A stretch of DNA of 64,000 nt from the NCBI GenBank assembly GCA_030267565.1, contig BRXU01000002.1, forward strand, positions 5,145,501-5,209,500, read 5' to 3'. The notes beneath the pieces were generated by a model. It did no database searches. It saw nothing but the letters and a program-made list of their open reading frames with translations, and was not told the DNA's origin. The DNA is from Pleodorina starrii (taxonomy: Eukaryota > Chlorophyta > Chlorophyceae > Chlamydomonadales > Volvocaceae). The position numbers and the translations under genes were made by a program. Of this stretch, positions 2,262-40,440 are shown one piece after another. Each line of letters opens with the position of its first letter. Position 1 is the first letter of the stretch.

Positions 2262-2544
2262 TGCATGGAGTAACGCATGCATGCAGATGCTGTTGATGCA
2301 TTGCATGCAAGACATGCGGTTAGTTCGGTGCAGGCGGGGGACGGCGTGCGTGCATGTTAGTTGCACGAAACCCGCCCCCCTCAGCAATTGATCAATTGAT
2401 CAGTGTTGTATCTCACCAAAGAAGGCCCATGGGTGAATGTCAGGGAAGGCCCCATATTCATGCATGAGATACTACAATCAGCACGAAGTTAACCGAGTGA
2501 AGTCTGCGTTCAGTGATGCCTGCTTTCAGTACATACAATATAAT
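2262..2544. other. Pherophorin downstream region, no feature recognised
   Basis: The stretch contains TGCATGCA-rich sequence near 2272-2310 and an ATTGATCAATTGATCA palindrome at 2387-2402. I see no clear TGTAA poly(A) signal within 280 bp of the stop codon. Nothing coding is recognisable. Confidence 0.5.
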
Positions 2545-2860
2545 AATAATAATACAAATGATATGCCCGGCCGGGAGCCGAGGCGTGGGTTATGGGAGCA
2601 GAGGGGGTGGGTGACGGGTTTCCCCGCCGGTCCCAGTCCCCCGCATCCCCCCCTCGCACCTCACAACCTACCGCAAGGAACGTCAGACCTGTCCATCCTT
2701 GGTTACGTACCGGCCGGTTGCAGCTCCCGCCGCTTGGCGGTTACGTTCCATTTGCCTGCGGGTTATAATGATACCGGTAGTGTTGAGTGTCCTAACTGCA
2801 TGGCTGTGGAGGTCGTTGCAGCATGCTCGGGCTTCCTTGCCGCCCGTGCCTAGGGTGTGG
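2526..2860 (-). mobile_element. Retroelement 3'-end fragment with (ATT)n tail
   Basis: Bases 2690-2855 (TGTCCATCCTTGGTTACG through GGCTTCCTTGCCGCCCGTGCC) recur as a reverse complement at 35490-35670. An AATAATAATAAT tract at 2529-2550 lies on the side where a minus-strand element would end, as expected for a non-LTR retrotransposon 3' tail. No coding portion remains. The family is not identified. Confidence 0.5.
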
Positions 2861-2879
2861 AGTAGAGGGCGTAGGTCCT

Positions 2880-3175
2880 TCCTGATGGTGCTCAGTGCCT
2901 GGAGTCCTTGGAGTCTTGGAGTTGCGTGGGGTTCCAGGGGGTCGAGGAGTGCTGGTGGGGTGCTGGAGTCTGCCCGACTCCATGGAGTTTCTGGGGAGAT
3001 TCCGCGGAGCGAGTCTGGAAAGAGTCTCCTGGAGTTTAGGACAAGACTCCATGAAGTCGGCGGGGAACTCCATGGAGTTTAGAAACGACTCCAGACTCCG
3101 AACTCCAAGGAACGGTGCCAGGAGTCTGGAGTCTGGAGTTTCCCCTGACTCCAAGCCACTCCAAGCAAGCCAGTC
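2880..3175. repeat. Dense GGAGTC/GACTCC cluster
   Basis: About 25 occurrences of GGAGT or ACTCC lie in about 290 bp. GGAGTC-type copies prevail on the left, and both orientations are mixed on the right (ACTCCATGGAGTTT occurs twice and is palindromic). The pattern is not a simple tandem repeat, because spacing varies between about 5 and 25 bp. Confidence 0.75.
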
Positions 3176-5875: not shown

Positions 5876-6836
5876 TTTTTGGGCGGGGCCCCAGCGCGAA
5901 GCGCCCAGGGGGGCCCCGCCCTGTAGGATTGCCCATGTCCGTGCGTGCGTGTATGTGAAGTAATAGGGGAAGTCAAGAATCTCGGCCATCGGAAAGGCTG
6001 CATAAGTAAAAGATTACATTCTTCATTGCACGGTAAATTTATTATTGGAACCCAACCTCGTTTAGGAACCCAACCAGTTTGGCAGTCTCCATGGACCGAG
6101 GCCGAGGTCAAACCATCACCTCTCGGCCTATAATTAATTCCAGAAGAGTCATCGTTCCTTAAGGTAGAATTCTGACATGAAGGCGTGAAATGAATCTTCG
6201 TTTCGGAAACAAACTATGTTTGCATTGCGAACATTCGTCCCGCGACCACACCACAGCAGCTCTGCTAGCCGGTCCGATCGTCTTGACGCATATTGCTATT
6301 ACAAAGGTTGCAAGGTGCAAACCATGAGGTGCCAACTGCTGGTTGTTGGACGCCAAGCCGCCGATGCACGCACGATTCATCTGCGGGCCGCCCAACAAGT
6401 CCAGTCGGCAACCTAGGGGACTTCTACTTTCCAAGTCCTGATGTTAATGTTGTCAAGCCTCCTCTATGACGAATACCTCGGTAGCGAAGCCTGTGCACTC
6501 TCGTCGGCAACTGCACGTCATCATCGCGACCCTCTCAAACAGTTCCGCTGTCCTTCTATTGGCAAGTCAGCCTGCGTGATGTGTAAATGATACACTGCAT
6601 GTCTACTGTCAAGTAACTTCAGCCAATGCGCTGGCCGGAAGAGTTGCACAGTGCCGAGGCGGCGCGCGATGCTAAACATGGGGCGGATTGCTGAAAGCTC
6701 TGGCTGTCTATCAGCAGGAATGTTGACACTCTCACACTTCACGCCCTCGCCGCCCTAGCACTCAACTTAACCCGTACGGATTTAGTGGGGCCCCGCCCTT
6801 TTTCCGGCTTCAAGGAAGCCGACACCAACCCCTTGT
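5876..6836 (+). mobile_element. Terminal-hairpin non-autonomous element, copy A
   Basis: Starts TTTTTGGGCGGGGCCCC and ends GACACCAACCCCTTGT. The left end folds into a hairpin: GGGCGGGGCCCC pairs with GGGGCCCCGCCC, and GCGCGAAGCGC lies in the loop. The right end has a second GGGGCCCCGCCC and the perfect hairpin GGCTTCCTTGAAGCC. No reading frame of note. Its ends are defined by comparison with four other copies in this window. There are no true terminal inverted repeats and I cannot identify a target duplication. Terminal hairpins without TIRs resemble Helitron-like elements, but no CTRR end is present. Confidence 0.75.
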
Positions 6837-6851
6837 CCCACTTTGAGTGTT

Positions 6852-7261: not shown

Positions 7262-7508
7262 GATGGCTCCCCTTGTAATCCTTGCGTTCTAAAGATGCTT
7301 GAGCGCCTCTGGGCCCACCGCAACTCAATGGTCCCCTTTGGCCGCTAGTATCTCCCTCTCCTGCATGGGCGGTTTTTCTACTGTCGTGCTTTTAGGCGTT
7401 TTAGTTCCCTTGCGCCCTCGGCTCGTATGGGTTTTTGTTCATGAGAGGGGCACGCACCCCCAACCATGTAACAAACACACACACATATTATTATTATTAT
7501 TATTGTTA
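7262..7508 (+). mobile_element. Non-LTR retrotransposon 3' end with TGTAA signal and (ATT)n tail
   Basis: AGATGCTTGAGCGCCTCTGG through CACCCCCAACCATGTAACAA is repeated in reverse complement at 39745-39930. TGTAA, the green-algal polyadenylation signal, precedes a CA run and an (ATT)6 tail, the usual 3' signature of LINE insertions in these algae. Only the untranslated end is here; the coding end of a relative is at 39930-40440 (minus). Confidence 0.7.
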
Positions 7509-16659: not shown

Positions 16660-16740
16660 AAGGACCCACCCACCCAGCCACCCACCCAGCCACCCACCCA
16701 GTCACTCACCCAGCCAGCGACCCAGACACACACACACACA
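16660..16740 (+). repeat. CCCACCCAGCCA minisatellite followed by (CA)n
   Basis: Four to five copies of CCCACCCAGCCA-type units, then CACACACACACA. They lie in the 300-bp C-rich leader in front of the 17031 reading frame. Confidence 0.8.
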
Positions 16741-17030
16741 TGCCCCGCCCCCCCCCGCCCGCGCATGCCCCCCTTGGTCCCCGCATACCCCCTTGTCTGC
16801 TCGTGCGCTATGCCCACCGTGCTGGGTTTTTCCTTGGCCCTCGTGCCCTGCCCCATTTCCCCCCCCCCCCTGCCCCCCCCCGCATGCCTTTCCCCTGCCC
16901 CGCCTCTGCCCCGCCCTGTCCCTGCCCTGTCCCTGTCCTGTCCACCCTTGGCCGCATTCACCTCACCCCAGACTGGATAGCCGCGAACACACGCACAAGC
17001 AACCCCAAAATAAAAGACGACCACGTACGG

Positions 17031-20000
17031 ATGGGAGAAGCTGTTCACGAAGATGAAGAGGCCAACCCTGGTCACACTCGCTTCGCCATGAGTGCCCGAT
17101 CCTTCTTTACAAACCTTATGTTAGCTGTCCCTACACTGGGACGAGGCTCTCCGACAAACTCAACCCCTGTCCTAACACGGCAGAGATCGCTCTCCACGAA
17201 GCTACAGAACACAATGCAGCTTCTTGCAACCCTGTCGCACAACAACCCTATCCTAAAGAAACTACAAACACACCCTCTAATCGAGCATGCCAATACCCAG
17301 CCCGACGACAACGCAGAGCCCCCCTCGGAAAACCAACTGCCTACACTGCAACGCAGGACAACCTTGAAGCAGGTAAACTGGCGACTGGCACGAAAGCAAC
17401 TGCTTCGTGTAAACCCCCCGCTAACAGATCGCCAGCACCCAGATAGCACTCTGGCTAACCAGCTCGTGTGCAGCCTCTACTCTGATTGTGAGTTTGTTGA
17501 ACGAATCATCTACGGACCATTCCGAAAGCGAGAAACCGTAGAGCCAAAAACACGGTGCAAACGCCCCAATAAGAAACGCCCAACCACCATCGACCTCACC
17601 GAGACAGGGGACCCACAGGACAAAGGCACGACGATGGAAGTTGACGGAGGTAAGAACACTACTGGTGCGGGAGCACCCAATCCAACACCAAGAAATACAG
17701 ACGGCCGCCTGGCTGGCGGCCCAAGCAGCACACACGCGGACTACCACAGAGTACAGTGGTGCAACACTATCGTGTGTGCAGGCGCGATCAGTGCTTACCG
17801 GCTGCTTAACTACCATGCCAAAGCGAGCAAGCACACGATAGCCAAGTACGGACGCGGAGCTGGAAGATACTTACACGAAGTCTCTTGGGAAGACTCAGAC
17901 ATGCCTCTCCGCGACATTCAAGGGCAACACAACTGGCCCACCTTACTCGCCACCCACCAAGTGCGTAATGCAACGCAGACCACCGTCAAACTCCCACCAG
18001 CCCCACTTGATACTCACCTTTCCAACGCGCAACGACAAGGCAGATGGGATCCCCCGAGCGCTGATACGAGTGCACGCACCAGGCGTACACTAACACATGT
18101 GACAATCAACACGGTACCCTGCAACCCAGACAGAGATATAAAACCACCTGGGAAGTACGTAATCATACCAGGGGAGCCTAGCGACTCCGAACTTCACGTG
18201 TATGACCCAACTGGCGCCTGGATAGGAAGTCTCCAAATCGACCGGGTGCGCTCCCTTTATGCACGATACCAGCACTCACGGCAAACCAGGCCCGACGCCC
18301 ACAACAAGTTAGCTGCCAGAGGAGGCTTTGATGAGGACGTAGCCAAACTCCTGTTAAGATATAAAGTCACACCTAAAAAGAAACACAGGAATGGACGACC
18401 AGGTGTCGGCACACACCAGAATCAAGCAACAATCAGAACCTGCCTCGAGAACCAAGTCACAATATGTCCTGAGCTTAGCGTTGTACTACAAGACGCGACA
18501 CAAGCAACTTGTGAGAGGTTTGCATCACCTCTCAACGTCGATAACTCCACGACACAGTACTTCAGCGCGTACGGGGAGGACCAACTCTTTGGAGCGAACC
18601 TCGACGCGTACTCGCAGCTTTTCAACGGACTGTCCATTGCCCACCCGGACCCCACCCCTGAGGCGTCAAACCATGCGCTTGCCTGGGCAATTCTCTCGGC
18701 ACAGGAAGCATCGGAAAACCCTGAACCGACACTGACTATCCTAATTCTGAAGTACAGCCTGAACGGCCCGTATAGCAAGCATATGGGAAACCCCGCAGTG
18801 CGGCGCCTAGGTCGCGTCCCAGCAACCCATGAGCTGGCGAAATTGCAACAGGGTAGAGGAAGCACAACGGACGCAACGGCTTACAAATCCGGTCTCGACG
18901 TCATAGCAGTCGGCAACATCAGCGGCCTTGCTCTCCTTACGCACACAATCGGTCCTAAGATTGCAATGAACACTGACAATCTGCTGGGACGTGACCAACC
19001 CCAACGAACACCTGGCCCCTGCCCAACACCAGACCGCACCCGGTGGGCAAAGCGACACCTACATGAACTACGAAAAGGGCAGTCTACCCCGGCCTTCAGC
19101 ACTACAGCCTGGGAGATCGAGCGGACAACACCAGGACAGCGGTACCGCCTGTCTGACAGCCAACCAGTGCATACCCGCCTACGATATGCTCCCAAAACCG
19201 GGCTGTACACTGATGGTAGCTGTGTCAAGGACCCAGAACACGACCTGAACATCCTAGGGGCAGCCATCTACGACGCTGCCACCGACCGTTTGCACCATGT
19301 GGCACCCAACGGCAAGGGGCCCACCAATACCATCACACGCGCTGAACTTGCTGCAATACATCAAGCGCTGAAGTTATACGCCACTTACGATGACTGCCTG
19401 TACCTCTTTACAGACTCTGCAGCCTCTCTTCATCTCACCCGGCGTGCCATCGTTGAAAAATCCAAACTCCATATTAGCAAACACAAGGAACTGCTACTTA
19501 ACATCGACGAATTACTATGGCACAGGGCTTCACAGGGACTCCGAACCGTGCTACTCAAGGTCAAAGCGCACGCTAACGCCTCACTCGGCAATGATAAAGC
19601 CGACCAAGGGGCAACCGCCGTCGCAAAAGGCGATGCTGAAGCCACACTAACCGAAGAAAGTGACAATAACCCCTTCGATAAAATCTTCTGGTTTCGTCAA
19701 ACCACGACCGAGCTGTACGGTAACGACCTCAACCGTGGCATAACAAATCTCCTCAACAAAACCACCCATCATGGCTTTACGCCCTCAGGCGTATATACGG
19801 ATCTATGGGAAAAAGCCAGCCCTAAACTCTGCGCACGAACTAGCAACTTGACGATCACCCGCGGAGGCGGACATAGCCTTTTTAAGCGAGTATTCGACTA
19901 CAGGTGGGGCCAATTATGGCACGCCGGCCTTGCCAAGCGATATGGCATACCAACAAAGCACCTAGAAGTGCACACCAACACCGCGAAGGAGAACAATGCC

Positions 20001-20693
20001 CCCTGCCCCCTATGCGGCCTACCAGATTCAGGCGGACATATTCTGGGAGGATGCAAAGAAACTGGTCATATAGCCATGTACATAAAACGGCACAACGCCG
20101 CTGCCCTGCTTATCGCAGATACCATACACAAAGGCAGGTATGGTGGATGCTACACCATCATTGACGCCTGTGCAGAAGACGCCAGCCCGGACTACTCATC
20201 TGGCACTCGACTGCCGAAATGGCTATTACCCAATATCCCGGAAAAAAAGAGGAAGAAAATGCGACCAGATCTCCTTCTTATCCCGACCCTACCACTATCG
20301 ACCACAGAGCAAACCACACCGTATAACGGACCACCGGACCGCTCAAATCACACAGTGTTTGTGATCGAGATAGGATACACAGGGGACCTCCGACATGATG
20401 AAAAGAATGAGCAAAAAGCAAAACAGCACGCGAAGCTAGCCCGCAGGCTCAAGGCCAACGGCTGGAAAGTGCGGTATACACCGAAGGAAGCCATCACACT
20501 TGGATTCGGTGGGACGATTCGCAATGACCTAAAGCCCCTTATCACCGAGCTCGGCGTGCCACCAGACACTGCCACACAATGCTGCGCGCGCGTTCATGAC
20601 CTCGCAATCAAGTACCTGAATAACATAGTCCTACGGCGACGCTCCCTCGAGGGACCCACATGCTACATGTCCAATCGTCAAGGGGTAGGGTAA
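17031..20693 (+). CDS. Mobile-element protein: PCIF1-like methyltransferase fold, RNase H, CCHC finger, PD-(D/E)XK nuclease
   Basis: Single frame of 1220 residues from ATG 17031 (MGEAVHEDEEANPG); upstream codons are low-complexity, so this start is preferred. Residues 1-300 are not recognised. About 430-580 resembles the PCIF1 adenine-N6 methyltransferase domain: CERFASPLN (494), a YFSAYGEDQLFG stretch, and NPEPTLTILILKYSLNGPYS. The catalytic NPPF position reads HPDP (538-541). About 724-870 is RNase H with all acidic residues (LYTDGSCV, RAELAAIHQ, LFTDSAAS, GNDKADQ). A CPLCGLPDSGGHILGGC finger (992) is followed by a restriction-like nuclease core: RPDLLLI (1078), VFVIEIGYTGDL (about 1113), then a Lys-rich helix. 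That finger-nuclease order is typical of R2/Dualen LINEs, but no reverse transcriptase motif is present. Uninterrupted, so recently active or maintained. Functional status unknown. Confidence 0.75.
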   Translation: MGEAVHEDEEANPGHTRFAMSARSFFTNLMLAVPTLGRGSPTNSTPVLTRQRSLSTKLQNTMQLLATLSHNNPILKKLQTHPLIEHANTQPDDNAEPPSENQLPTLQRRTTLKQVNWRLARKQLLRVNPPLTDRQHPDSTLANQLVCSLYSDCEFVERIIYGPFRKRETVEPKTRCKRPNKKRPTTIDLTETGDPQDKGTTMEVDGGKNTTGAGAPNPTPRNTDGRLAGGPSSTHADYHRVQWCNTIVCAGAISAYRLLNYHAKASKHTIAKYGRGAGRYLHEVSWEDSDMPLRDIQGQHNWPTLLATHQVRNATQTTVKLPPAPLDTHLSNAQRQGRWDPPSADTSARTRRTLTHVTINTVPCNPDRDIKPPGKYVIIPGEPSDSELHVYDPTGAWIGSLQIDRVRSLYARYQHSRQTRPDAHNKLAARGGFDEDVAKLLLRYKVTPKKKHRNGRPGVGTHQNQATIRTCLENQVTICPELSVVLQDATQATCERFASPLNVDNSTTQYFSAYGEDQLFGANLDAYSQLFNGLSIAHPDPTPEASNHALAWAILSAQEASENPEPTLTILILKYSLNGPYSKHMGNPAVRRLGRVPATHELAKLQQGRGSTTDATAYKSGLDVIAVGNISGLALLTHTIGPKIAMNTDNLLGRDQPQRTPGPCPTPDRTRWAKRHLHELRKGQSTPAFSTTAWEIERTTPGQRYRLSDSQPVHTRLRYAPKTGLYTDGSCVKDPEHDLNILGAAIYDAATDRLHHVAPNGKGPTNTITRAELAAIHQALKLYATYDDCLYLFTDSAASLHLTRRAIVEKSKLHISKHKELLLNIDELLWHRASQGLRTVLLKVKAHANASLGNDKADQGATAVAKGDAEATLTEESDNNPFDKIFWFRQTTTELYGNDLNRGITNLLNKTTHHGFTPSGVYTDLWEKASPKLCARTSNLTITRGGGHSLFKRVFDYRWGQLWHAGLAKRYGIPTKHLEVHTNTAKENNAPCPLCGLPDSGGHILGGCKETGHIAMYIKRHNAAALLIADTIHKGRYGGCYTIIDACAEDASPDYSSGTRLPKWLLPNIPEKKRKKMRPDLLLIPTLPLSTTEQTTPYNGPPDRSNHTVFVIEIGYTGDLRHDEKNEQKAKQHAKLARRLKANGWKVRYTPKEAITLGFGGTIRNDLKPLITELGVPPDTATQCCARVHDLAIKYLNNIVLRRRSLEGPTCYMSNRQGVG

Positions 20694-20814
20694 GGTTCTT
20701 TTTGTGGAGCTCCCCTGGTGGTGGCGGCGTACAGGCTCCTAGTCGAGCCTCATCGCACCCGCCCCCATAAACCACGCCAGGGTTTTTGCCCGGCGTAATA
20801 TTATTATTATTATT
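20694..20814 (+). mobile_element. 3' end of the 17031 element: hairpin plus (ATT)n tail
   Basis: About 80 bp after the stop codon, CGCCAGGGTTTTTGCCCGGCG (20774-20795) can fold as a stem with a TTTTT loop. It is followed at once by TAATATTATTATTATTATT (20796-20814). A 3' hairpin and microsatellite tail are hallmarks of target-primed non-LTR retrotransposition. The 5' end of the element is not defined; it may lie in the repeats at 16.6 kb. Confidence 0.6.
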
Positions 20815-23330
20815 CCTCGCCCCAGGCCCCTCATGCGTGGTGGCCTGCGTGCTCGGCCCGTGTGGTGGGGAGCCGACTCTTCACGCTCCGCCACCCGGCC
20901 CCTCCTGCACATCGCATCTTCCCGCGCCCCGCTGCCTCTGCCCTTTCCGCTCGTCCCGCCGTCGTTCTTCCCTTCTCCTCGCCCTTGCCCTTGCCCTTGT
21001 GCCCCTTCGCCCTTTCTCCCCTGCCCCGCCTTCCGTCCCTCCCACACTGCTTCATGCGTACCGACATACCAAATCAAGCTCGCAATTGTTGGCTCCAAGT
21101 GACCCATGGGTCATGTGGGCGACGTCGCGACCGTCGCGAGCCGGCTCCTGTCGCGGTGTTTACAACTAGTCAGACGTAATAACTCAGACGATTCTTTAAC
21201 GGACGCAGAACGAGGTTAAAAGCGCGGAGTGCCGCCGCACCCTCTCCAACAACAGTCGCACTTCAATAACGGCGTAACCATGGGAAGCACGTCATGAAGC
21301 CAGCGGCCAACCGTCTGTGTCCGCCAGTCGAGCACTTTGGATTGGCGTCCGAGGAACGGGCACCTCGGCTAGGCTGAGCGATGACCGACATCCCTAACGT
21401 CAGCCCTTCACGTACACGCTCCTATCACACTTTTTATTCTCCGCCAACGCACTACTGTATTTGCTTCATGCTTACCGATACCAAACGAAGCTCGCAATCT
21501 ACGGCGACCGAGGCAGAATGGACGCGCGGCTCCAAGTGACCCATGGGTCATTTCGGCGGCGTGCCGGCTCGTGCCGTCGCGAGCCGGCTCTTACCCTTTC
21601 TGTCCGTGCGTGGTGCCGGCGTTGTGCTGCAGCATTCATTCATGTAATGAAGCGCTCCTGACTCCCGCAGGCAGACGGAACTTCCTTGCACTGCCCCTTT
21701 ACGGCGATACGGCGGGCCCCACGTGTGCCGTCCTCCTTCACCCAACAGTGCCACCAGCCTTTCAACATCCTTCGGAGTACCCACTCTGGTGTACACTTAT
21801 TGAACCTGGAATTAACGAGGCGCTCCTGAGCGCAACAGGCGTTCGGAAATCCCTTGCACGGCCTCACATTACGTTACGGGTGTACGGCCCCACGTGTGCC
21901 GTCCTCAATTTCTCTGTCGTGCTTTCCTTAAGCTTTTTGCGGGTGAGGACGCGGAAGCAGAAGCCCCTACCGGGTACTCTTTTGTTCTGTTGTTTTGGGA
22001 TTCGTTTACTCCATTTGCTGAGCGAAGCTGACGTGTGACCTGGTCTGCAGTTTCTGTAATGCACCGCTCTCCACAGTGCTTGCAGCCCCCACTGAGTGGT
22101 CCGAAAGTGTCCTGCCGATATCCCAAGTCCCAAGTGGCCCACTCGCGCGGGCTAACCGCCGCGCGTATTGCACCACGCAGGAATCGAGCTCACGACGTCG
22201 GCTCGGTGCATGACTACCGTCAACGCTGTCCCGTACACATCCGTATAATGCACGTATATTGCAATATTGCAATTTTATTCTCTGCCAACCAGCTCTTTCC
22301 ACCTGTGCCTTCGAACGAACGAACGAACGAACGAACGAAGGAACGAACGGCAGTCCCTGGCATGCCCGAGAAAGCAGAAAGCAGCCAGAGAAGCCCCTAA
22401 CGGGTTCTCTGGCGTGCTTTCTTTACGCTTTCTTCGGGAATATGTGCAATATTTTGTAAAATGGTTTTCGAAATGAGTTCTTCGTTTGGCTGGCGTGCCG
22501 AAGTTCGTCTTCAGTCACCGACGGGCGGAACGAAGGCCAGCGAAGGCAGACTGGCTTCGTATGCCCCCCTTCGTCACGTCTTACGAAGGGGTAGGCACTT
22601 AACGAAGGATTTCGTTTCCCAGAGTGCTGGAGGTCATCGCCTGCTCCGTCCGCCTCGCAGCCGCTGCCACCATATGAACAGAATTCCTCCTCCATGCCAT
22701 TGGCGTTATCAACACGCTTCACAGCGCCTGCCCAGGCTTGATAACCATTATATTTTACATGGTTGCGGCGTGCCTGGCCTAAGTTAAGCGACCCGCCTAC
22801 CCTAATGCATTCGGTGTATAATAATAAATATAAATAAATAGACAACATCGATGTTCAGTGATAAAGCGTACACCTGAAGCTAGGCCAGTGAAAATATGTT
22901 CCGGGGTACTGCGCTTTTCGGGTAGCAATAATAATTTCCATTGTCCAAAGGGGGGTCACCGCCGTACGCCCATAGCAAAAAGCACTTGTTCTGCGCGCAC
23001 ACGACGACTTTTGCGAATAAACGCAGAAGTGACATGTGCCAGGGCTGACAGTGCCAGGGCTGACAGTGCCACGGCTGGAAGCACGCCATGCTTTCCAGAT
23101 GGGCAGTCAAAACCAGGTTGATGCGGGAATGGACGCATGTTGTTATTGCAACATTTCTCTTTCATAATGTCACTTCTGCGTTTTTTTAGTGGCATGTGAT
23201 GTACAATACATCATCAGCAATGACGCGCGGGTAGCCGCCCTTGGCACTCATTTTTGTACGCCACGTCGCCAAGCTACTGGGGTTCTTAACTCTGCTGCCT
23301 GATGTTTGCTAATTAAAATCGACAAGGATA
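20815..23330. other. Repeat-rich intergenic DNA without recognised genes
   Basis: Contains a direct repeat of about 100 bp (TTCATGCKTACCGA through CCAAGTGACCCATGGGTCAT) at 21048 and 21463. A second (GAGCGCTCCTGA... through CCCCACGTGTGCCGTCCTC) lies at about 21648 and 21815. There is a (GAAC)n tract at 22311-22349 and an AATAATAAATATAAATAAAT tract at 22816. An inverted repeat (AAACGCAGAAGTGACATG at 23020, its complement at about 23165) flanks three copies of a 15-bp unit CAGGGCTGACAGTGC, which looks MITE-like. No coding region is supported. Confidence 0.55.
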
Positions 23331-23474
23331 TGTTGAGGTTCGGACGATTACGTTCAGACTTGCACTGCTCCGGAACTGTACAACATCTCTATCTGGGGTG
23401 CTTTGCCTAGCAGAGCATCGTCTGTCTTACTTGTAACATCGGAATGTCTACCAATTGACTCTCGATCCACAACA
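23331..23474 (+). repeat. Copia 5' LTR
   Basis: 144 bp, TG...CA termini, base-for-base like the 3' copy by eye. TTGTAACATCGG near its end contains the algal poly(A) signal TGTAA, as expected for the R-region end. Confidence 0.95.
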
Positions 23475-23490
23475 GGTTATGAGCCCCGCG
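23475..23490 (+). promoter_or_regulatory. Copia primer-binding site, complementary to initiator tRNA-Met anticodon arm
   Basis: GGTTATGAGCCCCGCG directly follows the LTR. Its complement GGGGCTCATAACC matches the conserved anticodon stem-loop (CAU) of eukaryotic initiator tRNA-Met. Copia-class elements such as Drosophila copia prime from a half-tRNA cut in the anticodon loop, so the site marks that priming mode. The same 14 bases occur behind the short LTR at 49736. Confidence 0.75.
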
Positions 23491-23560
23491 CATAGGCGCA
23501 GCAGAGGCGAACCTTATCCATAAAGTGCCAACTGCGGCGGCAGGCTCGGCAGCGGATAGG

Positions 23561-25220
23561 ATGGGCGGCCAGGATTCTGGCACCAGGAATGGTTTCTATT
23601 TTGGGGAGACCAGCTATGAGGAGATGAGCGAGCACGTCAAGGGAGTGCTCCAGCGCAAGGGCTTGGCGAAAGCCATTGACGAAGACGCGGATAAGCGCAA
23701 GCTCGTATCAGCCGACAACGACGAGAAGGCAATCGGATACATCAAGGAGTTTATTGCCAGTAATGAGAAGCCGCTCTACAAGCCCCACAAGACCGCGTGG
23801 AGCCTGTGGGAGGCGTTGCGCAATGACTACGCGCAGCAGTCCATCGCCGCCGTAATGGCGCTCATCAAGCGCCTCAATACGTTCACCCTCGACGGCGGCG
23901 AGTCCACAAAGGCGTATATTGCGCGATTCAAGACCCTGCGGAGCGAGCTGGCGAGCGCCGGCGAGAACGTCAGCGACGTAATCGCCATCAGCCACATCCT
24001 GGGCGGGCTTCCGCCAGCCTACGACCAGCTGTGCACTATGTTGCGCCATTCGGGCGAGATCAAGAAGGTGGACGATTTGCTTCCCCACCTGATGGTCGAG
24101 GAGCTGGAGATTCAGAGGAAGGAGCGCGCGCAGGTGTTGATTAACAGCGTGGCGAGTACTAGCTACGGCAGCGGCCGTGGCGGCTTCAGCGCGTGTGGGG
24201 GTCGCGGCGGCCGCGGTGGATACGGCGGCGGCCGCGGCGATGGCGGCTCCAACGGCAACGGCCGGAAGGGCCGCTGCAACTACTGCAACAACAAGGGCCA
24301 CTACTGGGCCGAGTGCCGCAAGCGGCTGGCCGACGAGGCCGCCGCGGCGGCTGGAGGAGCGCCGCAACAGCGACAGCAACAGCAGCCGCAGGCCAACCGA
24401 GGGCCGCGGCAGCAGCAGCCACAGCCGCGGCACCTGATCGCCGCTGTCAACCTCGTGGCTGGAGTGAGGGCTGGATCCGGCGAGTGGCTGGTCGACACTG
24501 GCGCCGAGAAGCACCTCACGGGCGACGCGTCGAACGTGAAGGGATTCACTCCGGTGGGCAGTTCGTGCGATGTGATTTTCCGCCTGCCTGACCAACGGCT
24601 TGCGCGTCCGTCGGGGGTGGGGTCGGTCACGTTTTGGTCGGAGAAGTACGAGACCTCGGTGACGCTGCAGAAGGTTTACGTCGTGCCGGGTTTCGACCAG
24701 TCCCTGTTCTCGGTGAAGGCGTTGAAAGAAGCGCTGGGGTGCCCGGTGAGCGCGCACCTCGGGGGGCCGGGATCGAATATTGAGGTGGACGGCCAGCCCG
24801 CGATGGAGGTTTATGAGAGGGACGGGATGTACTTCCTGCGAGAGCAGGAGCAGCAGGCATCACCACCGGGACCCGTCCCGTCTCAGGGCCCCGGACCGGC
24901 GCAGGGGCCCGGCTCGTCGCGAGATCACCCGCCGGAAGGGGACCGGGGAGCACCGCCATCCGCTCCCCGGGGGGCCACGATTTCGGTTGTCCAGAGTTCC
25001 AGTGGCCCGGCTAACGTCCCAGTGAGCAACGCAGGGCTCTCGGCGGGGGATAAGGCTTTTCTGAATGGAGCGTTGCGGAAGCGGTATGAGGATGCGCAGT
25101 GGTTTGAGGAGAATGCCTGGCGTAGGGTTAACCATGAGATGGCGGTGGAGAGCGCGCGCGTGGCCGCTGAGAAGAAGGTCGCGCACATCACTCGGGTAGC
25201 TAAGGTGCACAGTGAGCGCG
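23561..25220 (+). CDS. Copia gag-protease part of gag-pol (5' segment, before gypsy insertion)
   Basis: From ATG 23561 (a GTG 36 bases upstream is open but less likely). Residues 1-200 carry the UBN2/gag fold (LWEALRNDYAQQS, FKTLRSELASAGE, ILGGLPPAYDQL). A Gly/Arg-rich linker and a CCHC knuckle CNYCNNKGHYWAEC at about 238 follow, then the aspartic protease active site VDTGAEKHLTG at about 312. The remainder up to the insertion point is Pro/Gly-rich and then helical. The gypsy 5' LTR begins after base 25220, and seven bases later the natural frame meets a stop inside the LTR. The frame resumes at 32395 without shift. Confidence 0.9.
25216..25220 (+). repeat. Gypsy target-site duplication, left copy
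   Basis: GCGCG here and at 32390-32394 flank the gypsy LTRs exactly. Five base pairs is the usual size for Ty3/gypsy integrases. Confidence 0.9.
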
Positions 25221-25594
25221 TGTAACGATAATTATACTTATAATATTTCCGACTTATAACCAATGGTTAACGGAACTCACTAAAGTGAGGAACGACCGTT
25301 GGATTAGTTGGAGACGATAATTGCGGAGCCCTGTCGTACATCAAGATCTCAAGGCGTCGGCCTCATATGCCGACTGGTGGAGCTTATGGGATTGAATTCT
25401 ATTTCTCAGGTGTCTGTTGACACCACCTCTTACTACTGTATGTTTCTGATATTAGTTAGATTAGTGCTTGGTAAGCTGTTTAGGTGGGCGCCGTCTTCGT
25501 CTCCTTCAACTGGTCGTTCTTCGGTCGTCGCTCTGGCGACGCCTGGTACCTCGGTGAGTTCCCTTCCGCTGCGTAGCGTAGCTTAAACGTTACA
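25221..25594 (+). repeat. Gypsy 5' LTR
   Basis: 374 bp. The inverted ends are TGTAACG and CGTTACA, so the terminal 7 bp are inverted repeats. It is followed by ATTGGCATCGAGTTCTAGG, where TGGCATCGAG from 25597 is the probable primer site. It is not the common initiator-Met TGGTATCAGAGC, and I cannot assign the tRNA. Confidence 0.95.
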
Positions 25595-25632
25595 ATTGGC
25601 ATCGAGTTCTAGGTCGCCTTCGCCGACCAAGA

Positions 25633-27699
25633 ATGGCCAAGAAGAAGGACAAGACCAAGGCTGTTCCTAAACAACCTTCCTTTAATATTCCTGAGGATGA
25701 TGCGACTCCAGTCGTATCAGGTCGTGAGCCGGCTGCGGCCGATCACACCAATCCTCTCCCCGGAGCGACTCCAGTCGCGGTTACGGGTACTAATTCGTCT
25801 CCTCAAGGAGCAACTAAGGCCAAAGGATCTATGCCTGAGGCCGGCATTCAGCCACAAACTCTTCCGCCGCAAGTCGCCGCTACCATCGCAAATGCAAGCG
25901 CGCGACGCGTATGGCGGACTTTCATTAAAAAGTTTGCAGACATGAAAGACATTCAATTGCCTGCTAACTTCACTTCGCTGCCTGCCGCTGATCTCGTTGC
26001 GTTTGCGCAGAGCATCAACATGGACCCTGCGGCGCCGGCGGCGGCCCTTGCGGCTGCCTTAAACAGCCAGGAGCAGTTCGGACAGGCCATGCAGCTCCAG
26101 CAGCAACAGCAGCAGCAGGCCCTCGCTGCCGGGCAGGACGGCCGCAACGTCGCCCCGGCTCTCGATGCCGCGGCAACCGCGGCCGGCCAGCCGGCCGCAC
26201 CCGGTCAACCGGGTGTGGAGGCACAACAAGGCCTTTCTCAGCAGGCGCTGGCGCAGGTGCACCAGGTGTGCACCAACGTGTTTCAACACGCCATGGGCCA
26301 GATTGTGACGCTCATGGACGCGCGCTTTGCCGAGTTCAAGGCGAGCAACGCTAATGGCAACCAGGCAGCGGCCGCAGCTGCAGCGGCGGGCATGGCCGCA
26401 GCGGCGGCGGCTGACGCCATGGAAGCCGATGGCGCAGGCGCAGATGGCCCCTCCTCGGACACCAGCTCTGAGGAGAGCGACAGCAGCGACGACGATGACG
26501 CGTCGCCGGCGGGCCGCATCATCAAGTCCACCCGCAAGCACATCCTTGCGGAGCTGAAGAAGACGGACATGCGCTCGGGCCGCGAGCGCAGCAAAGCCAT
26601 GAAGGGCTTCGCTAAAACGTTCGCCAGCCTACTAACGCCGGCCCAGGCTGCCAAGATGTCGGCGTCGGAGCTCGTCGCCTCCTGGCAGGAGCGCGGCAAT
26701 GGCTACATGCGCCTGCACGACTGGGTGCCTCTGTCCGGCGCCGAGCTGGACCCACGCGCCTACCTGTCGCACCTGGAATTTGATATGCCGCGGGATGCGG
26801 ACGTCCAGGCGGCGCTGGCCAGCCTCCGCAGCAACGGCGGCGCGGGCGGAAGCAACGGCGGCGCCGGCGGCAGTACCGCCGGCGGCTGGCAAAGCCAGGA
26901 GGTGAGAAAGAAGGTTCCGGAGCCGTATAAGTTCACGGGGGCCACGGACAAGCATGTCACGTGCGTGCAAACGTGGTTCGATACCTTCATCACCTACTGC
27001 GACACCACTCACATCAACCCCATTCAGAACCTAGCGTTCTTCACCACGGGGGCTGCACAAGAGTGGGTGGTGGGATACATGGGCGACGCGCTGACTAGCG
27101 GGGTCGTCGTGACGCGCGAGCAGCTGCGCACCGATTTCCTCGTCCAGTTCGGCGATATCCGCCGTCACACTGCCCAGTCCGCACGCGAACGCTTTCACGC
27201 GGGGGAGCACAGCATGAAACCGGGCGAAAAGGTCAACCTGTACACGCAGCGCTTCCGCACGATCGTGCGGGATGCCAAGGGCATGTCTCAGGTGGATCAG
27301 ATTTTCTGGTACCTTCACGGGCTTCTCCCCGCACTTAAGAAGGCATGCGCTACGGACGCCCTGGGCAAGGACTGGGTCTCGGTGGAAGATCTCATTCGCT
27401 TTGCACTGAGCCAGGAGCTTCGTGCTAACATTGCGAAATCCGCTTCTAACACCCACGCTACGGTGGCCGCTGTTTCTACCCCCTCCCAACCTCGCAAGCA
27501 GAAGCGGAAACGCTCCGAGCGCTCCGAGGACGGAGACAAGAAGCCCCCCAGGTGCATTCACTGCGCCGAGGAGTTCCCCGACGGCTTCCCGCCGTCGCAC
27601 TTGCGAAAGTGCGACGTCTTTCAGCGCAAGCTGAAGGCCGGGTTGGTCAAGGACGGCAGCAGGGGCAAGAAGGCGGACCGCAAAGATGGCAAGCGTTAG
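25633..27699 (+). CDS. Gypsy gag
   Basis: 688 residues from ATG (MAKKKDKTKAVPKQPSF). A basic start, a Gln/Ala-rich region at about 155-200, and an acidic Ser/Asp patch (SSDTSSEESDSSDDDD) at about 275-295 come first. A retrotransposon gag fold at about 435-600 follows (VQTWFDTFITYCDTTH, FFTTGAAQEWVVGYM, FLVQFGDIRR, IFWYLHGLLPALKKA). Near the C-terminus a basic RKQKRKRSERSE is followed by CIHCAEEFPDGFPPSHLRKC. That is a C-x2-C-x10-H-x4-C-like finger rather than the usual CCHC knuckle. The frame ends in CGT TAG (27694-27699) and pol continues in the same frame. Confidence 0.9.
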   Translation: MAKKKDKTKAVPKQPSFNIPEDDATPVVSGREPAAADHTNPLPGATPVAVTGTNSSPQGATKAKGSMPEAGIQPQTLPPQVAATIANASARRVWRTFIKKFADMKDIQLPANFTSLPAADLVAFAQSINMDPAAPAAALAAALNSQEQFGQAMQLQQQQQQQALAAGQDGRNVAPALDAAATAAGQPAAPGQPGVEAQQGLSQQALAQVHQVCTNVFQHAMGQIVTLMDARFAEFKASNANGNQAAAAAAAAGMAAAAAADAMEADGAGADGPSSDTSSEESDSSDDDDASPAGRIIKSTRKHILAELKKTDMRSGRERSKAMKGFAKTFASLLTPAQAAKMSASELVASWQERGNGYMRLHDWVPLSGAELDPRAYLSHLEFDMPRDADVQAALASLRSNGGAGGSNGGAGGSTAGGWQSQEVRKKVPEPYKFTGATDKHVTCVQTWFDTFITYCDTTHINPIQNLAFFTTGAAQEWVVGYMGDALTSGVVVTREQLRTDFLVQFGDIRRHTAQSARERFHAGEHSMKPGEKVNLYTQRFRTIVRDAKGMSQVDQIFWYLHGLLPALKKACATDALGKDWVSVEDLIRFALSQELRANIAKSASNTHATVAAVSTPSQPRKQKRKRSERSEDGDKKPPRCIHCAEEFPDGFPPSHLRKCDVFQRKLKAGLVKDGSRGKKADRKDGKR

Positions 27700-30600
27700 G
27701 CGCTTGGCAAGGACGCGGAGGGTGCGGGTTCTGACCCGCCAGAGCCAGCACGTGTGTCGAAAGCTCTAGGCTGTCGCGAAGCAGGTCCTAACCTGCCGGT
27801 TGCGCGCGTTGCTGTATCCCACGCTCTAGGTGTTCGGGATGGTGGAATTGGTGCCGTAGGCGCGGCGGGACCCCCGGACCATACGTTGGGGTCTCCGCCG
27901 GCCGCTCAGGGGGTCGTTTTTGAGCTTCCTCCACCTCCACCGCCGGGAAACGACGACCGCATGTTTTGCAGTCGAGAGTTTGCTCGGGTGCAGTCGGAGT
28001 TGGGCGTCAAGTTTACCTTTGATGCCGCATGTAACAATTCTGGCACCAATGCTCTGTGCGTTCCTTTTGCCTCACCCAGCCAATCTTTCTTCGATAAGGA
28101 CGTTGGCGGGGAAACCCTCTGGATAAATCCACCAGTACACGAAGTGGTCAGATGGCAGCAGCACTACGCGAAATGCAAAGCTGCACAGCCCAGCACCACC
28201 AGTGCCATGTTCGTAGCCCCCAAGTGGCCCGTGCTTGAGCAGCACTTTCAGTCTCTAGGCTACGCGCTCTTTAAGGAGTACCCTATTGGAAAGCGGCTTT
28301 TCACCACTCCCAATAACGAGCGGGGCAAAGCTCAGCTCATGGGTATCCCTTGGCCGGTCCAGCTTTGGTACGATCCTCCCAAAACGGAGGCTGTACTGCG
28401 CTCCGTACAGAACAACTCGGGCTACAGCATGCACTTCCTCAGCAAAATGTACGGCAAAGAGGCCCAAACGCTCGTTGACAGCGGGGCTTGTGCAGTGGGA
28501 GCTGCCGACGGCTTTGTTGGCCAAACTCTGGTCAACAGCTTGCGCCTTAAGGTGCAGCCAGCGGCGGTTACCTCCGTACGCCTCGCAGACGGTTCGCTCC
28601 AGCAACTGTTGGGTCAAGTCGCCGTGCCCATCCGCATGGGCACATATCGTGACACGGTGCGCCTCCTTGTAATGCCAGGCGGCATGCCAGGCACGGACAT
28701 TTTGCTTGGGACAGATTGGCTCAAGCGGCTCAAGGCCGTTATGAGCTGGGACAGTGATTCGCTCACCCTCCAAAGGGGGGGGAAGAGCCTTACACTGCAC
28801 CCGACTTACGTACACAGGTCGGCTGACACCGAACCTGACCCAATCGCGGTCATGAACTACGTGTGCGCGCGGTTGCACCAAGCGACGTCGGTTCCGCTTC
28901 TGAGCGCCAAGCAAGCTGCAAAGCTGCTTACGCGGGGTGCGCGATCGTACCTAATGCTAGTACGCGAAGATAGCGTTGAGCCCGCGGACCCTACTCGTTG
29001 CGAATCCGCGACGGTTGGGGCTGCTACGTCAACTGATGCTCCTGCGCCCATCGACCTGGTACCGCAGTCGGAAATAGAAGCACTGAAATCCGAATTTTCA
29101 GATGTCTTCGCGGAGCTGAACGAGCCTCCACCGGAGCGTCCGGGAATAGGTCACACTATTCCCTTGGTAGAAGGCGCTCAGCCTCCCGCAAAACGTATGT
29201 ACCGCTTAACTCAGGCTGAGCGGGAAGAGGTCAAAAAGCAAGTAGCGGATTTGCTTGCTAAAGGGTTCATCGAACCGAGCACCTCCCCATTCGGTGCGCC
29301 TGTTCTGTTTGTCGAAAAACAGGACAAGACCCTTCGAATGTGTTTGGATTATAGAGCATTAAACAAAATCACCGTCAAGCGGAGATACCCAATGCCGTCC
29401 ATAACCGACCTCTTCGACCAGTTGCAAGGCGCAAAAGTCTTTTCAAGCCTTGACTTGCAACAGGGTTACTACCAAATCCGCATTACACCTGAGGACAGAC
29501 CTAAAACGAGCTTCCTCACGCCTGAGGGACAGTTTCAGTTCAAGGTCCTTTGTTTCGGCCTGACTAATGCGCCCGCAACGTTCCAATCCACCATGGCAAC
29601 GATTTTTCGGGAGCACATTGGTCGATTTGTTCTCGTGTATTTGGACGATATACTTATTTTTTCTAAAACGGCACAAGAACATGTACGGCACCTCCGTATT
29701 GTACTTGAGCTGTTACGTGAGCACAAGTTCAGGGCAAAATTGCCTAAGTGCGACTTCAATAAAGCGGAATTGAAGTTTTTGGGGCACATCGTGGGCAGGG
29801 ACGGCCTTAAGGTCGACCCGTCTAAAGTAAAAGTGGTACAGGACTGGGCCACTCCCACAAACGTTTCGCGTCTCAGGTCATTCCTGGGATTAGCGAATTA
29901 TTTTAGGCGATTTATACAGGGTTATTCATCGCTCGTTGCCCCACTCACGTCATTGACGGGTGCTCAAGTACCTTGGGATTGGACACCGGAATGCCAATCC
30001 GCGTTTAATGGCGTGAAGCACGCACTTACGAACGCACCGGTGTTAGTTCTGCCAGAACTGGACAAACCTTTTGAGGTTTGGTCCGACGCGTCCGTATTCG
30101 GGACGGGTGCCATCCTCTTGCAGGACGGTCGGCCGGTGGCTTACACAAGCCAGAAGTTTACTCCTGCGGAGATAAACTACACAACCACCGACCAGGAATG
30201 CCTTGGGGTTATCCATGCGTTAACCGAATGGAGGTGCTATCTTGACGGGGCACAGCACGTCACTTTAGTCACCGATCACCAACCCCTGGTATATCTGCAA
30301 GACCAGAAAAGCAATAATTTGCTTTCGCGCCGCCAAGCGCGCTGGATGGAATACCTTTCTCGTTTCAAGTTCGAATGGGAATATCGTCCGGGCAGAATTA
30401 ACGTGGCCGACCCTATTAGCAGGGTACACGAGCCTACGGTGGCAGCTGCGCTCACACGGTCAAGCATCGTCGCTGATCTCTTGACGCGGATCCAGCGAGG
30501 GTACCACAAGGACCCATCCTTTGCTGACCCATTACGGATAGCTGGGCTGTACTATAACACGTCGCGAGGCCTCTGGCAAAAAGGCCAACGGGTGGTGATC

Positions 30601-31971
30601 CCCGACGCTGACGGGTTGCGCGATCTGATCATGGCTGAATACCATGACAGTATCACATCTGGGCATAGAGGAATAAGCCGCACAAAGGAAGTTATTTCCC
30701 GCTCGTACTGGTGGCCCACTCTGGACGCAGACGTGGCCGAGTATGTCGGAAGATGCCCCGAATGCCAGCGCAACAAGCCTTCCAACCATAAGCCGTATGG
30801 AAAGCTACAGCCCCTCCCAATACCGGAGACAAATTGGGAGAGCGTGTCACTCGATTTGATCACGCAGCTACCGAAAACCGCTAAGGGCCACGACGCCGTA
30901 CTTGTGTTTGTGGATCGGCTCAGCAAAATGGTGCACTTTGCTGCCACTCACACCGACGTCAGTGCTGAGGAGATAGCGTGGCTATACCTCGAACACGTTT
31001 TCAAGCATCATGGGCTGTCCAGGTCCCTGGTGTCTGACCGTGGAACTCAATTCACCGGTCATTTTTGGCAGGAGCTGTTTAAGAGCCTTCGCACCAAACT
31101 ACGCATGAGCACCGCTTACCATCCGCAAACGGACGGTCAGACGGAGCGCATGAACCGGCTCTTGGAAGAAACCCTTCGGCACTACGTCAATCCGACGCAG
31201 GATGATTGGGACAAACATCTGCCCTTAATCGAGTTTGCAATCAATAACTCGAAGCAGAGCAGTACCAATACAACGCCGTTCATGCTCAATTCGGGTCACC
31301 AACCTCGGGTTCCCGCGGATGTTGACATCGAATTGGAGAATGGCAAAGTCCCATCGGCCAAAGAGTTTGCTTCCATTATGCGGGAACGCATCGCTGCGGC
31401 CCGCAGGCACCTGAAAGCGGCTCAGGATCGCCAACGCACTGCCTATAACCGCAAACGAGAGGATATCTCGTTTGACATTGGAGAAAACGTGTTGCTCTCT
31501 ACATCCAACATTACGTTGAAGTCCCCTGGCGCAAAGAAGTTGCTGCCCAAATACATTGGGCCCTTCAAAATCCTGGCGCGCGTAGGTTCGGTGGCCTACA
31601 AACTTGACTTGCCAGCGGGATACAAAATTCATCCAGTCTTCCACGTTTCGCTCCTAAAGCCTTACAAAGGTGACGGCACTTATCAACCGCCGCCCGCCTT
31701 TGTACTGGAAGGCGAGGAGTACTGGAGCGTGGACAGTATCATCGACGTACGGGAACGCAAAATCGGGCGTAAAACACGCCGCGAATTTCTTGTAAAATGG
31801 GCCGGATTTGGTCCCGAACATAACACTTGGGAGCCTGAAGAGTCCCTTCGAAGGGATTCCTTGGTTGCCGAGGAGGTCGATGCCTTCCTCACTAAGCGCA
31901 CCCAGGCACCGCCTCCCCGGGTTATGCCTACATCTCGGCACAGGCGCGTCAAAGGACAGCGCCGCCGGTGA
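27700..31971 (+). CDS. Gypsy pol with Dam-like domain and chromodomain
   Basis: Open in the gag frame from just after the UAG. No ATG occurs before about residue 70, so expression by readthrough or an alternative start is implied. Numbering from GTG 27754: a Dam-type methyltransferase-like domain at 70-210 (FTFDAACNNSGTNALC, LWINPPVHEVVRW, FKEYPIGKRLF); aspartic protease VDSGACAVGA at 241; RT with VYLDDILIF at about 629; RNase H starting VWSDASVFGTGA; integrase HHCC finger (HRGIS...CPECQRNK) and D,D,E core (LDLITQ, SDRGTQFTG, GQTERMNRLLEE); C-terminal chromodomain at about 1322-1370 (VDSIIDVRER, FLVKWAGFGPEHNTWEPEE). All polymerase and integrase catalytic residues are present. The Dam motif reads NPPV rather than NPPY/F, so methylation activity is doubtful. 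Confidence 0.92.
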   Translation, partial: ALGKDAEGAGSDPPEPARVSKALGCREAGPNLPVARVAVSHALGVRDGGIGAVGAAGPPDHTLGSPPAAQGVVFELPPPPPPGNDDRMFCSREFARVQSELGVKFTFDAACNNSGTNALCVPFASPSQSFFDKDVGGETLWINPPVHEVVRWQQHYAKCKAAQPSTTSAMFVAPKWPVLEQHFQSLGYALFKEYPIGKRLFTTPNNERGKAQLMGIPWPVQLWYDPPKTEAVLRSVQNNSGYSMHFLSKMYGKEAQTLVDSGACAVGAADGFVGQTLVNSLRLKVQPAAVTSVRLADGSLQQLLGQVAVPIRMGTYRDTVRLLVMPGGMPGTDILLGTDWLKRLKAVMSWDSDSLTLQRGGKSLTLHPTYVHRSADTEPDPIAVMNYVCARLHQATSVPLLSAKQAAKLLTRGARSYLMLVREDSVEPADPTRCESATVGAATSTDAPAPIDLVPQSEIEALKSEFSDVFAELNEPPPERPGIGHTIPLVEGAQPPAKRMYRLTQAEREEVKKQVADLLAKGFIEPSTSPFGAPVLFVEKQDKTLRMCLDYRALNKITVKRRYPMPSITDLFDQLQGAKVFSSLDLQQGYYQIRITPEDRPKTSFLTPEGQFQFKVLCFGLTNAPATFQSTMATIFREHIGRFVLVYLDDILIFSKTAQEHVRHLRIVLELLREHKFRAKLPKCDFNKAELKFLGHIVGRDGLKVDPSKVKVVQDWATPTNVSRLRSFLGLANYFRRFIQGYSSLVAPLTSLTGAQVPWDWTPECQSAFNGVKHALTNAPVLVLPELDKPFEVWSDASVFGTGAILLQDGRPVAYTSQKFTPAEINYTTTDQECLGVIHALTEWRCYLDGAQHVTLVTDHQPLVYLQDQKSNNLLSRRQARWMEYLSRFKFEWEYRPGRINVADPISRVHEPTVAAALTRSSIVADLLTRIQRGYHKDPSFADPLRIAGLYYNTSRGLWQKGQRVVIPDADGLRDLIMAEYHDSITSGHRGISRTKEVISRSYWWPTLDADVAEYVGRCPECQRNKPSNHKPYGKLQPLPIPETNWESVSLDLITQLPKTAKGHDAVLVFVDRLSKMVHFAATHTDVSAEEIAWLYLEHVFKHHGLSRSLVSDRGTQFTGHFWQELFKSLRTKLRMSTAYHPQTDGQTERMNRLLEETLRHYVNPTQDDWDKHLPLIEFAINNSKQSSTNTTPFMLNSGHQPRVPADVDIELENGKVPSAKEFASIMRERIAAARRHLKAAQDRQRTAYNRKREDISFDIGENVLLSTSNITLKSPGAKKLLPKYIGPFKILARVGSVAYKLDLPAGYKIHPVFHVSLLKPYKGDGTYQPPPAFVLEGEEYWSVDSIIDVRERKIGRKTRREFLVKWAGFGPEHNTWEPEESLRRDSLVAEEVDAFLTKRTQAPPPRVMPTSRHRRVKGQRRR

Positions 31972-32002
31972 ATACTGGCATCGCTCCCGGGACGTTCGCT
32001 TC

Positions 32003-32015
32003 AAAGGGGGGGGAG
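32003..32015 (+). promoter_or_regulatory. Gypsy polypurine tract
   Basis: AAAGGGGGGGGAG immediately precedes the 3' LTR at 32016 and is the plus-strand DNA synthesis primer site. Confidence 0.85.
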
Positions 32016-32389
32016 TGTAACGATAATTATACTTATAATATTTCCGACTTATAACCAATGGTTAACGGAACTCACTAAAGTGAGGAACGACCGTTGGATT
32101 AGTTGGAGACGATAATTGCGGAGCCCTGTCGTACATCAAGATCTCAAGGCGTCGGCCTCATATGCCGACTGGTGGAGCTTATGGGATTGAATTCTATTTC
32201 TCAGGTGTCTGTTGACACCACCTCTTACTACTGTATGTTTCTGATATTAGTTAGATTAGTGCTTGGTAAGCTGTTTAGGTGGGCGCCGTCTTCGTCTCCT
32301 TCAACTGGTCGTTCTTCGGTCGTCGCTCTGGCGACGCCTGGTACCTCGGTGAGTTCCCTTCCGCTGCGTAGCGTAGCTTAAACGTTACA
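32016..32389 (+). repeat. Gypsy 3' LTR
   Basis: 374 bp, no difference from the 5' LTR found by eye. It is followed by GCGCG (32390-32394). Confidence 0.95.
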
Positions 32390-32394
32390 GCGCG

Positions 32395-35168: not shown

Positions 35169-35179
35169 CCGTGTGGGAG

Positions 35180-35323
35180 TGTTGAGGTTCGGACGATTAC
35201 GTTCAGACTTGCACTGCTCCGGAACTGTACAACATCTCTATCTGGGGTGCTTTGCCTAGCAGAGCATCGTCTGTCTTACTTGTAACATCGGAATGTCTAC
35301 CAATTGACTCTCGATCCACAACA
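35180..35323 (+). repeat. Copia 3' LTR
   Basis: 144 bp identical to the 5' LTR by eye; target duplication GGATA follows at 35324-35328. Confidence 0.95.
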
Positions 35324-35456
35324 GGATATCGTGCCGGTAAGTTTACGACAGCGCCTTTCCACTAGCCTTAACAGGCTACGTTGACCGGTTACTCTTCTTC
35401 TACCTCTTTCTTTCGACACTTTCGGCACTACTAGCGCTGTTTGTTAGTTTGCTGTA

Positions 35457-35690
35457 TTTTTTGGGCGGGGCCCCAGCCCTCAACCTTACACCCTAGATAG
35501 GCACGGGCAGCAAGGAAGCCCGAGCATGATGCACCGACCTCCACGACCATGCAGTTAGGACACTCAACACCGACTATCGTTATAACCCCCAGGTGAATGG
35601 AACGTAACCGCCAAGCGGAACCGCAAACGGCTGGGACGCTCGTAACCAACGATGGACAAGTCTGAAGCTCCTTGCGGTGGTGTGGGTGGG
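35457..35690 (+). mobile_element. Hairpin-element terminus joined to a retroelement fragment
   Basis: TTTTTTGGGCGGGGCCCCAG (35457-35476) is the left terminus of the hairpin family, truncated after about 20 bp. It is followed by 35490-35670, the reverse complement of 2690-2855. The composite shows one fragmenting the other. Confidence 0.55.
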
Positions 35691-39740: not shown

Positions 39741-40440
39741 TAGCGTGTGTGTGTTTGTTACATGGTTGGGGGTGCGTGCCCCTCTCATGAACAAAATATC
39801 CATACGAGCCGGGGGCCCAAGGGAACAAAAACGCTTAAGAGCACGACAGTAGAAAGCCGTCCATGTAGGAGAAGGAGGTACTAGCGGCCAAAGGGGACAA
39901 TATAGTTGCGGTGGGCCCAGATGCGCTCATGCATCTTCGCCAAACGAGGGGGATCCCATCTCATCGCTTCCTCCATACCCTCGAATTGAGGGAACCCTTC
40001 ATCTGCGCGGATGCTACTGTAAGGAGGGGCATTCCGTTTGAACATGCTTCTCGTCCCCTATTTGACCATCCGCAACGCAGCAGGGACATTTTCGCTCGGT
40101 CCTACGGACATGAACTCTGCCCACTCGTGATCTGTTGGCCGCAACCGCCCAACAGCACAATCGAAACGCTAGGCACGGCATGCTGTGGCCACATGTAGCG
40201 TGTGTACGGCGCAGGGGCAGGCTTGCCGCTGTGCGCTTTGCCCATGGCCTCATGCAACGGTTTGGCTCTGGTGTGAGCGCCACTCTCTGCCTGTCGCAAA
40301 GGCCAGATGAAGCCACTGTCCCCGAAAACGGTTCCGTCGGCGCAGCCAAGGGAGGTATATTCTGCTGCCCACAGCGTCCCTGGCTTGACGCCATCCAGGT
40401 GCACGCCAGTCCCAAGAGGCGCGGACGAGGATATCCTTCT
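39741..40440 (-). pseudogene. 5'-truncated LINE: C-terminal finger and 3' UTR
   Basis: Read on the minus strand, 40415-40014 ends in CPCCVADGQIGDEKHVQTECP, the cysteine-rich finger common at the C-terminus of algal LINE ORF2. From 39930 down to 39745 it matches the 3' UTR at 7290-7480 (TTCATGAGAGGGGCACGCAC, CCATGTAAC). The (ATT)n tail is missing here; GTGTGTGTGTT ends the match. Frameshifts upstream of the finger indicate decay. Confidence 0.6.

Follow-up and report, generated by a model that had tools for sequence, protein, structure and literature searches.

What kind of element encodes a methyltransferase-fold domain related to PCIF1, an RNase H, a CCHC finger and a nuclease in one long frame, and yet no reverse transcriptase (RT)? 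The question is raised by a locus of the green alga Pleodorina starrii, which lies in a window of 64,000 nucleotides, the whole stretch analysed here (contig BRXU01000002.1, positions 5,145,501 to 5,209,500, forward strand; coordinates below count from its first base). The frame at 17031..20693 is uninterrupted over 1220 residues, and a domain profile scan found neither RT nor an apurinic-like endonuclease (APE) in it. Judging from longer relatives, we infer, with a probability of about 0.85, that 16974-20814 is a 5'-truncated copy of a long interspersed nuclear element (LINE) resembling Dualen/RandI. The locus is made up as follows:

16740..20693, + strand: open frame of 1317 residues, in which the stretch before about 16974 is C-rich flank
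16974..20814, + strand: putative extent of the 5'-truncated LINE copy, as judged by homology, the tail and the matching flanks
16961..16973: 5' copy of a candidate target-site duplication, identical to the 3' copy at 11 of 13 bases
20815..20827: candidate target-site duplication, 3' copy
17730..18020, + strand: spacer with paired W-containing motifs, common to relatives
18093..18980, + strand: PCIF1-like methyltransferase-fold domain
18639..18656, + strand: AHPDPT at the position of PCIF1's catalytic NPPF, N not retained
19182..19625, + strand: RNase H domain with conserved D, E, D, D positions, which we take to be catalytic
20004..20054, + strand: CCHC finger, C-x2-C-x7-H-x4-C, from an alignment including R2 proteins
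20061..20651, + strand: predicted PD-(D/E)XK nuclease domain, the restriction-like endonuclease (RLE), with PD at 20265-20270 and E at 20367-20369
20774..20796, + strand: 3' hairpin, immediately 5' of the tail
20799..20814, + strand: (ATT)n tail

The PCIF1-like, RNase H, CCHC and R2-type nuclease folds are each backed by profiles and predicted structures; a PDB search from the frame as a single sequence gave no match. A preliminary description, made from the letters alone, had proposed an intact 1220-residue frame without RT, PCIF1-like and nuclease folds, an R2/Dualen-like order of RNase H, finger and nuclease in a LINE relative, and a hairpin plus (ATT)n tail at the end of the locus, and on all of these it has held up.

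The evidence for truncation comes from relatives. A protein search with the window frame as query returned six proteins, two of which, P0002 (1831 residues) and P0004 (2018 residues), combine RT with a PCIF1-like domain and RNase H; P0002 matches the window frame at 40% over residues 230-1207. Five more proteins came from a second search, for which the C-terminal part of P0002 served as query, RT being present in P0009, P0010 and P0012; the RT of P0010, used as the third query, contributed the best 120 of 122 matches, 116 of them new. The resulting 128 sequences (the window protein and 127 relatives) were scanned with profiles derived from at most the window protein and the first 11 relatives (five sequences for RT, one for APE), which the source sequences match by construction. 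The PCIF1-like domain was found in 86 of the 128, RT being present too in 80 of these. RT, PCIF1-like domain, RNase H and RLE share one frame in 69 sequences, and their order is identical in 69 of 69. The APE profile, from P0010 alone, matched 42 of the 128 proteins, including 27 of the 69 with all the other domains, and many relatives were assigned PF03372; for P0010 itself the APE reached only 0.016 in Pfam, and a PDB search found no APE. Longer members of the group encode a predicted APE, RT, PCIF1-like domain, RNase H, CCHC finger and a putative PD-(D/E)XK nuclease in a single frame. RT is separated from the PCIF1-like domain by a spacer with a median of 471.5 residues (range 235-637, 80 proteins), and the window copy starts about 373 residues ahead of its PCIF1-like domain, that is, within this spacer. 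The preliminary description had seen the PCIF1-like domain as standing in RT's place, but in relatives RT is fused to the frame upstream of it, an outcome that the preliminary description had itself named as refuting its view. Because it is, the options raised there (RT supplied in trans, the second frame of a split element, a distinct transposon class) are unnecessary, although the first two keep the small probabilities given below. No related locus was confirmed by tblastn in viral and genome contigs.

Some relatives carry further domains: a cysteine-protease domain upstream of APE (OTU in P0017, Josephin in P0039), PHD fingers between RT and the PCIF1-like domain (P0034, P0012), and, in P0096 and P0099, a partial match of 66-74 residues to C5-cytosine DNA methylase (PF00145, 3.5e-8 and 6.4e-9) between the PCIF1-like domain and RNase H, which puts two methyltransferase-type domains in one LINE protein. 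The spacer at 17730-18020 was considered as a pair of chromodomain halves and this was rejected, the likeness being by eye only, with no Pfam or PDB support. Three pieces of the spacer had no Pfam match at E <= 10, a fourth from P0012 matched PHD and other zinc-finger or small Pfam families and no chromodomain, and the aligned pieces gave only a chance match in PDB (mariner, 0.52).

Downstream of the frame, the stop, 3' untranslated region (UTR), terminal hairpin and (ATT)n tail follow in that order, and the folding of the UTR beats 200 of 200 shuffles. The 13 bases 3' of the tail are identical to 16961-16973 at 11 positions, a match attained in 0.25% of the shuffles of the flanks and 0.86% of the shuffles of the regions. 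The window holds two further copies:

2541..2889, - strand: second 5'-truncated copy, of a related family, with the last 68 residues, 3' UTR and a (TTA)n tail
35476..35678, + strand: decayed remnant of the 3' end of a third copy, with 81% identity to the second

The UTR and tail of the second copy resemble those of 16974..20814, and its truncation point differs. Varied 5' ends with a constant 3' end are the established outcome of target-primed reverse transcription in LINEs. The window copy would have been inserted in this way, with reverse transcription starting at the end of the RNA that bears the hairpin and (ATT)n and halting within the spacer that separates RT from the PCIF1-like domain, leaving the 5' truncation. 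Such a copy is probably dead, though it could be mobilised in trans through its intact 3' end.

Phylogenetic analysis placed the PCIF1-bearing proteins together. The RT tree included 117 of 121 RT proteins (four with spans under 300 or over 800 residues were omitted); the trees are quick ones, with long branches and no root inferred. All 79 PCIF1-bearing rows of this tree fall within one 95-row branch (SH-aLRT 97), whose remaining 16 rows comprise 13 without a detected domain after RT and three with partial PCIF1 matches. RNase H or RLE without a PCIF1 match was seen in 14 RT rows, 11 of them outside the branch. These sequence comparisons suggest that the PCIF1-like domain was likely captured once. 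In the RNase H-RLE tree the window protein groups with P0002, P0003, P0008 and P0009 (SH-aLRT 98). The named proteins that belong to the PCIF1-bearing branch or group with it are green-algal, namely those of Pleodorina starrii (P0072, with RT as its last part), Haematococcus lacustris (P0055) and Chlorella variabilis (P0005, without RT), and named animal proteins such as those of Ciona (P0106) and Ephydatia (P0109) fall outside it.

Dualen/RandI LINEs, which reportedly go back to Kojima and Fujiwara in 2005, are the closest known system, and Dualen has a cysteine protease. Our relatives resemble them in combining APE, RLE and RNase H, in the (ATT)n tail, and in green-algal hosts where these are named. 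According to the parts of the cited papers available to us, here and below, the joint presence of APE and RLE marks Dualen (PMC4640811, PMC3636483), the tails of RandI consist of (ATT)n or (CTATTT)n (PMC3747384), and Dualen has been reported in core-Reinhardtinia species (PMC8226300). The difference is the PCIF1-like domain, which goes unmentioned in the available parts of PMC3636483, PMC4640811, PMC8226300 and PMC3747384. The window copy itself has the RLE, RNase H and (ATT)n tail and lacks APE and RT; since APE is absent, we speak of a copy of a Dualen/RandI-like LINE, not of a complete member. R2 is described as having RT and RLE only (PMC3636483), whereas in the relatives APE, RNase H and the PCIF1-like domain are present as well, and the window copy has RNase H and no RT. 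Retroelements with methyltransferase domains have also been described, namely SymbioLINE-Dnmt, DIRS with Dam-like or Dnmt3 domains, and KnitGypsy-Dnmt3 (PMC5890265). The present group is similar in bearing such a domain; unlike those cytosine or Dam-like enzymes, its domain belongs to the PCIF1 family, lies between RT and RNase H, and is found throughout one RT branch. No case of PCIF1 joined to Dualen or another LINE was found in the open-licence literature, as represented mainly by titles and abstracts, and the regular presence of a PCIF1-like methyltransferase fold in this LINE group looks new.

The PCIF1-like domain resembles PCIF1/CAPAM, the cap adenosine N6-methyltransferase, in having the same fold across 219-239 residues in structural matches and in its FASPLN and FG stretches; it differs in giving no WW match, in not retaining NPPF, and in being embedded in a LINE protein. 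The gathering score of Pfam PCIF1_WW (31.1 bits) is not reached by the window (24.7 for the frame, 28.0 for a piece). Among the first 11 relatives, P0004, P0006, P0007, P0008 and P0011 lie above it and P0002, P0005, P0009 and P0010 below, and the scan gave no match for P0003 and whole P0012. No WW family was found at E <= 1 in the window frame or in P0002-P0012. The catalytic NPP[FYW] occurs in none of the 86 PCIF1-like regions. NP[E/K]Y stands at the catalytic place in 24 of the 82 rows with letters there (four of the 86 have none; P0094 and P0102 were scored as NP[E/K]Y by eye, and P0068 by alignment column, stray matches occurring elsewhere in the domain in P0011, P0042 and P0071 and as the first match in P0068). 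The remaining rows, among them the window copy with HPDP, lack N, P or the aromatic residue, or more than one of these, or show a different residue pattern. On the RNase H-RLE tree, which includes 23 of the NP[E/K]Y rows, this state requires no fewer than 12 changes; 11 columns of the domain are invariant among 11 diverged members. A fold retained while its catalytic motif varies suggests a binding role. In PCIF1, m7G is recognised between the helical and methyltransferase domains and an NPPF motif is present, and fly PCIF1 is unable to methylate yet retains binding to the C-terminal domain of RNA polymerase II (PMC9916840). The domain of the window copy is probably a pseudo-enzyme, and that of other lineages is possibly active. 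Tentatively, the likeliest ligand of the domain would be the 5' end of the element's own capped RNA; a cap-bound domain would tie the protein to its own messenger and to the moment at which RT reaches the end of the template. Methylation might have been retained in the NP[E/K]Y lineages and lost in the window copy.

Several observations weigh against a truncated copy of an RT-bearing element. The 80 of 86 is inflated by selection, as 116 of the 127 relatives were found with RT as query; among the ten PCIF1-bearing relatives found without it, RT is present in five and absent from five (P0005, P0006, P0007, P0008, P0011). P0006 and P0007 almost span their short contigs and have no initial M, and may be cut by contig ends. 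P0005 (an annotated gene on a 1.5 Mb contig), P0008 and P0011 (on a 30,983-base contig) begin with M and could be genuine RT-less forms or truncated copies, and P0008 belongs to the window protein's own five-row group. The window frame is entirely open, as an old dead copy would not stay, and the candidate target-site duplication is imperfect and located in C-rich DNA. P0095, P0097 and P0104, inside the PCIF1 branch, initially gave no PCIF1 match (their partial matches, at 7.2e-10, 9.5e-14 and 9.4e-10, came from a larger profile with filters off), and the Dualen affiliation comes from published descriptions available in part, the relatives' RT having been placed in a tree of database proteins only. 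A stable non-autonomous family without RT, which would use the RT of full-length relatives in trans, fits the 1220-residue open frame, the intact 3' end and the five RT-less relatives, of which P0011 comes from a 31 kb contig and P0008 groups closely with the window protein. We nevertheless consider it improbable, because an in-frame RT is present in the close relatives P0002 and P0009, the 5' border falls in the RT-PCIF1 spacer, and the second copy in the window is truncated at a different point. Many LINEs have two frames, and the window frame, open on its own, might be the second of a split element with an RT-bearing first frame upstream. This is very unlikely: in 80 proteins a single frame encodes both RT and the PCIF1-like domain, and the idea of a separate upstream RT frame was rejected when a tblastn search of the window with 11 relatives, five of them RT-bearing, gave no RT-region match at E <= 1. 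Nor is there appreciable probability that a host gene was captured or fused at this locus. PCIF1 is a eukaryotic gene (PMC8868631), but in all 69 four-domain proteins the domain is flanked by RT and RNase H, an order whose recurrence led us to reject host capture, and a similar 3' UTR and tail are found in the second window copy.

An alternative that concerns the domain and not the locus is that it acts as an adenine methyltransferase, marking the new DNA copy (as N6-methyladenine, 6mA) or the element's RNA and so evading silencing. NP[E/K]Y persists in those 24 rows, some on branches drawn near the base, P0096 and P0099 also have the partial C5-methylase match, and other retrotransposons carry adenine and cytosine methylases (PMC5890265). 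We regard this as rather unlikely given the motif counts above and the HPDP of the window copy; a single change in NPPF could account for the absent mark in Drosophila (PMC9479742).

The window also contains repeats of other kinds. At 23331-35329 a Copia element (150-bp long terminal repeats, LTRs, 99.3% identical) is interrupted by a Gypsy chromovirus (375-bp LTRs, 100% identical), which is a young nested insertion. A tandem array with a 150-bp period and about 99% identity occupies 41509-44108, and a dispersed repeat of about 1 kb is present at 5876-6840 (- strand), 46946-47927, 48194-49135 and 50812-51799, with copies 84-93% identical. A further (ATT)n tail lies at 7486-7504, and the roughly 190 bp before it (7292-7504) recur at 39745-39937 on the opposite strand (91%), possibly as a short interspersed nuclear element using an (ATT)n-type tail.

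By itself, the locus is an ordinary truncated copy. How LINE proteins choose their own messenger and sense the end of the template is a long-standing question, and a branch-wide PCIF1-like domain with a constant place after RT and before RNase H is a concrete candidate for such a function, with cap binding as its prediction. It is conceivable, and we put it forward more cautiously still than cap binding alone, that a PCIF1-type cap methyltransferase entered a whole branch of algal LINEs a single time, at the place separating RT from RNase H, and now serves to recognise the capped 5' end of the element's own RNA during target-primed reverse transcription, the domain being a working adenine methyltransferase in some lineages and a pseudo-enzyme in others; no LINE group before this one would have had a cap reader of its own. 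With PCIF1 family members residing in mobile elements, surveys of algal PCIF1 could mistake LINE fragments for host genes.
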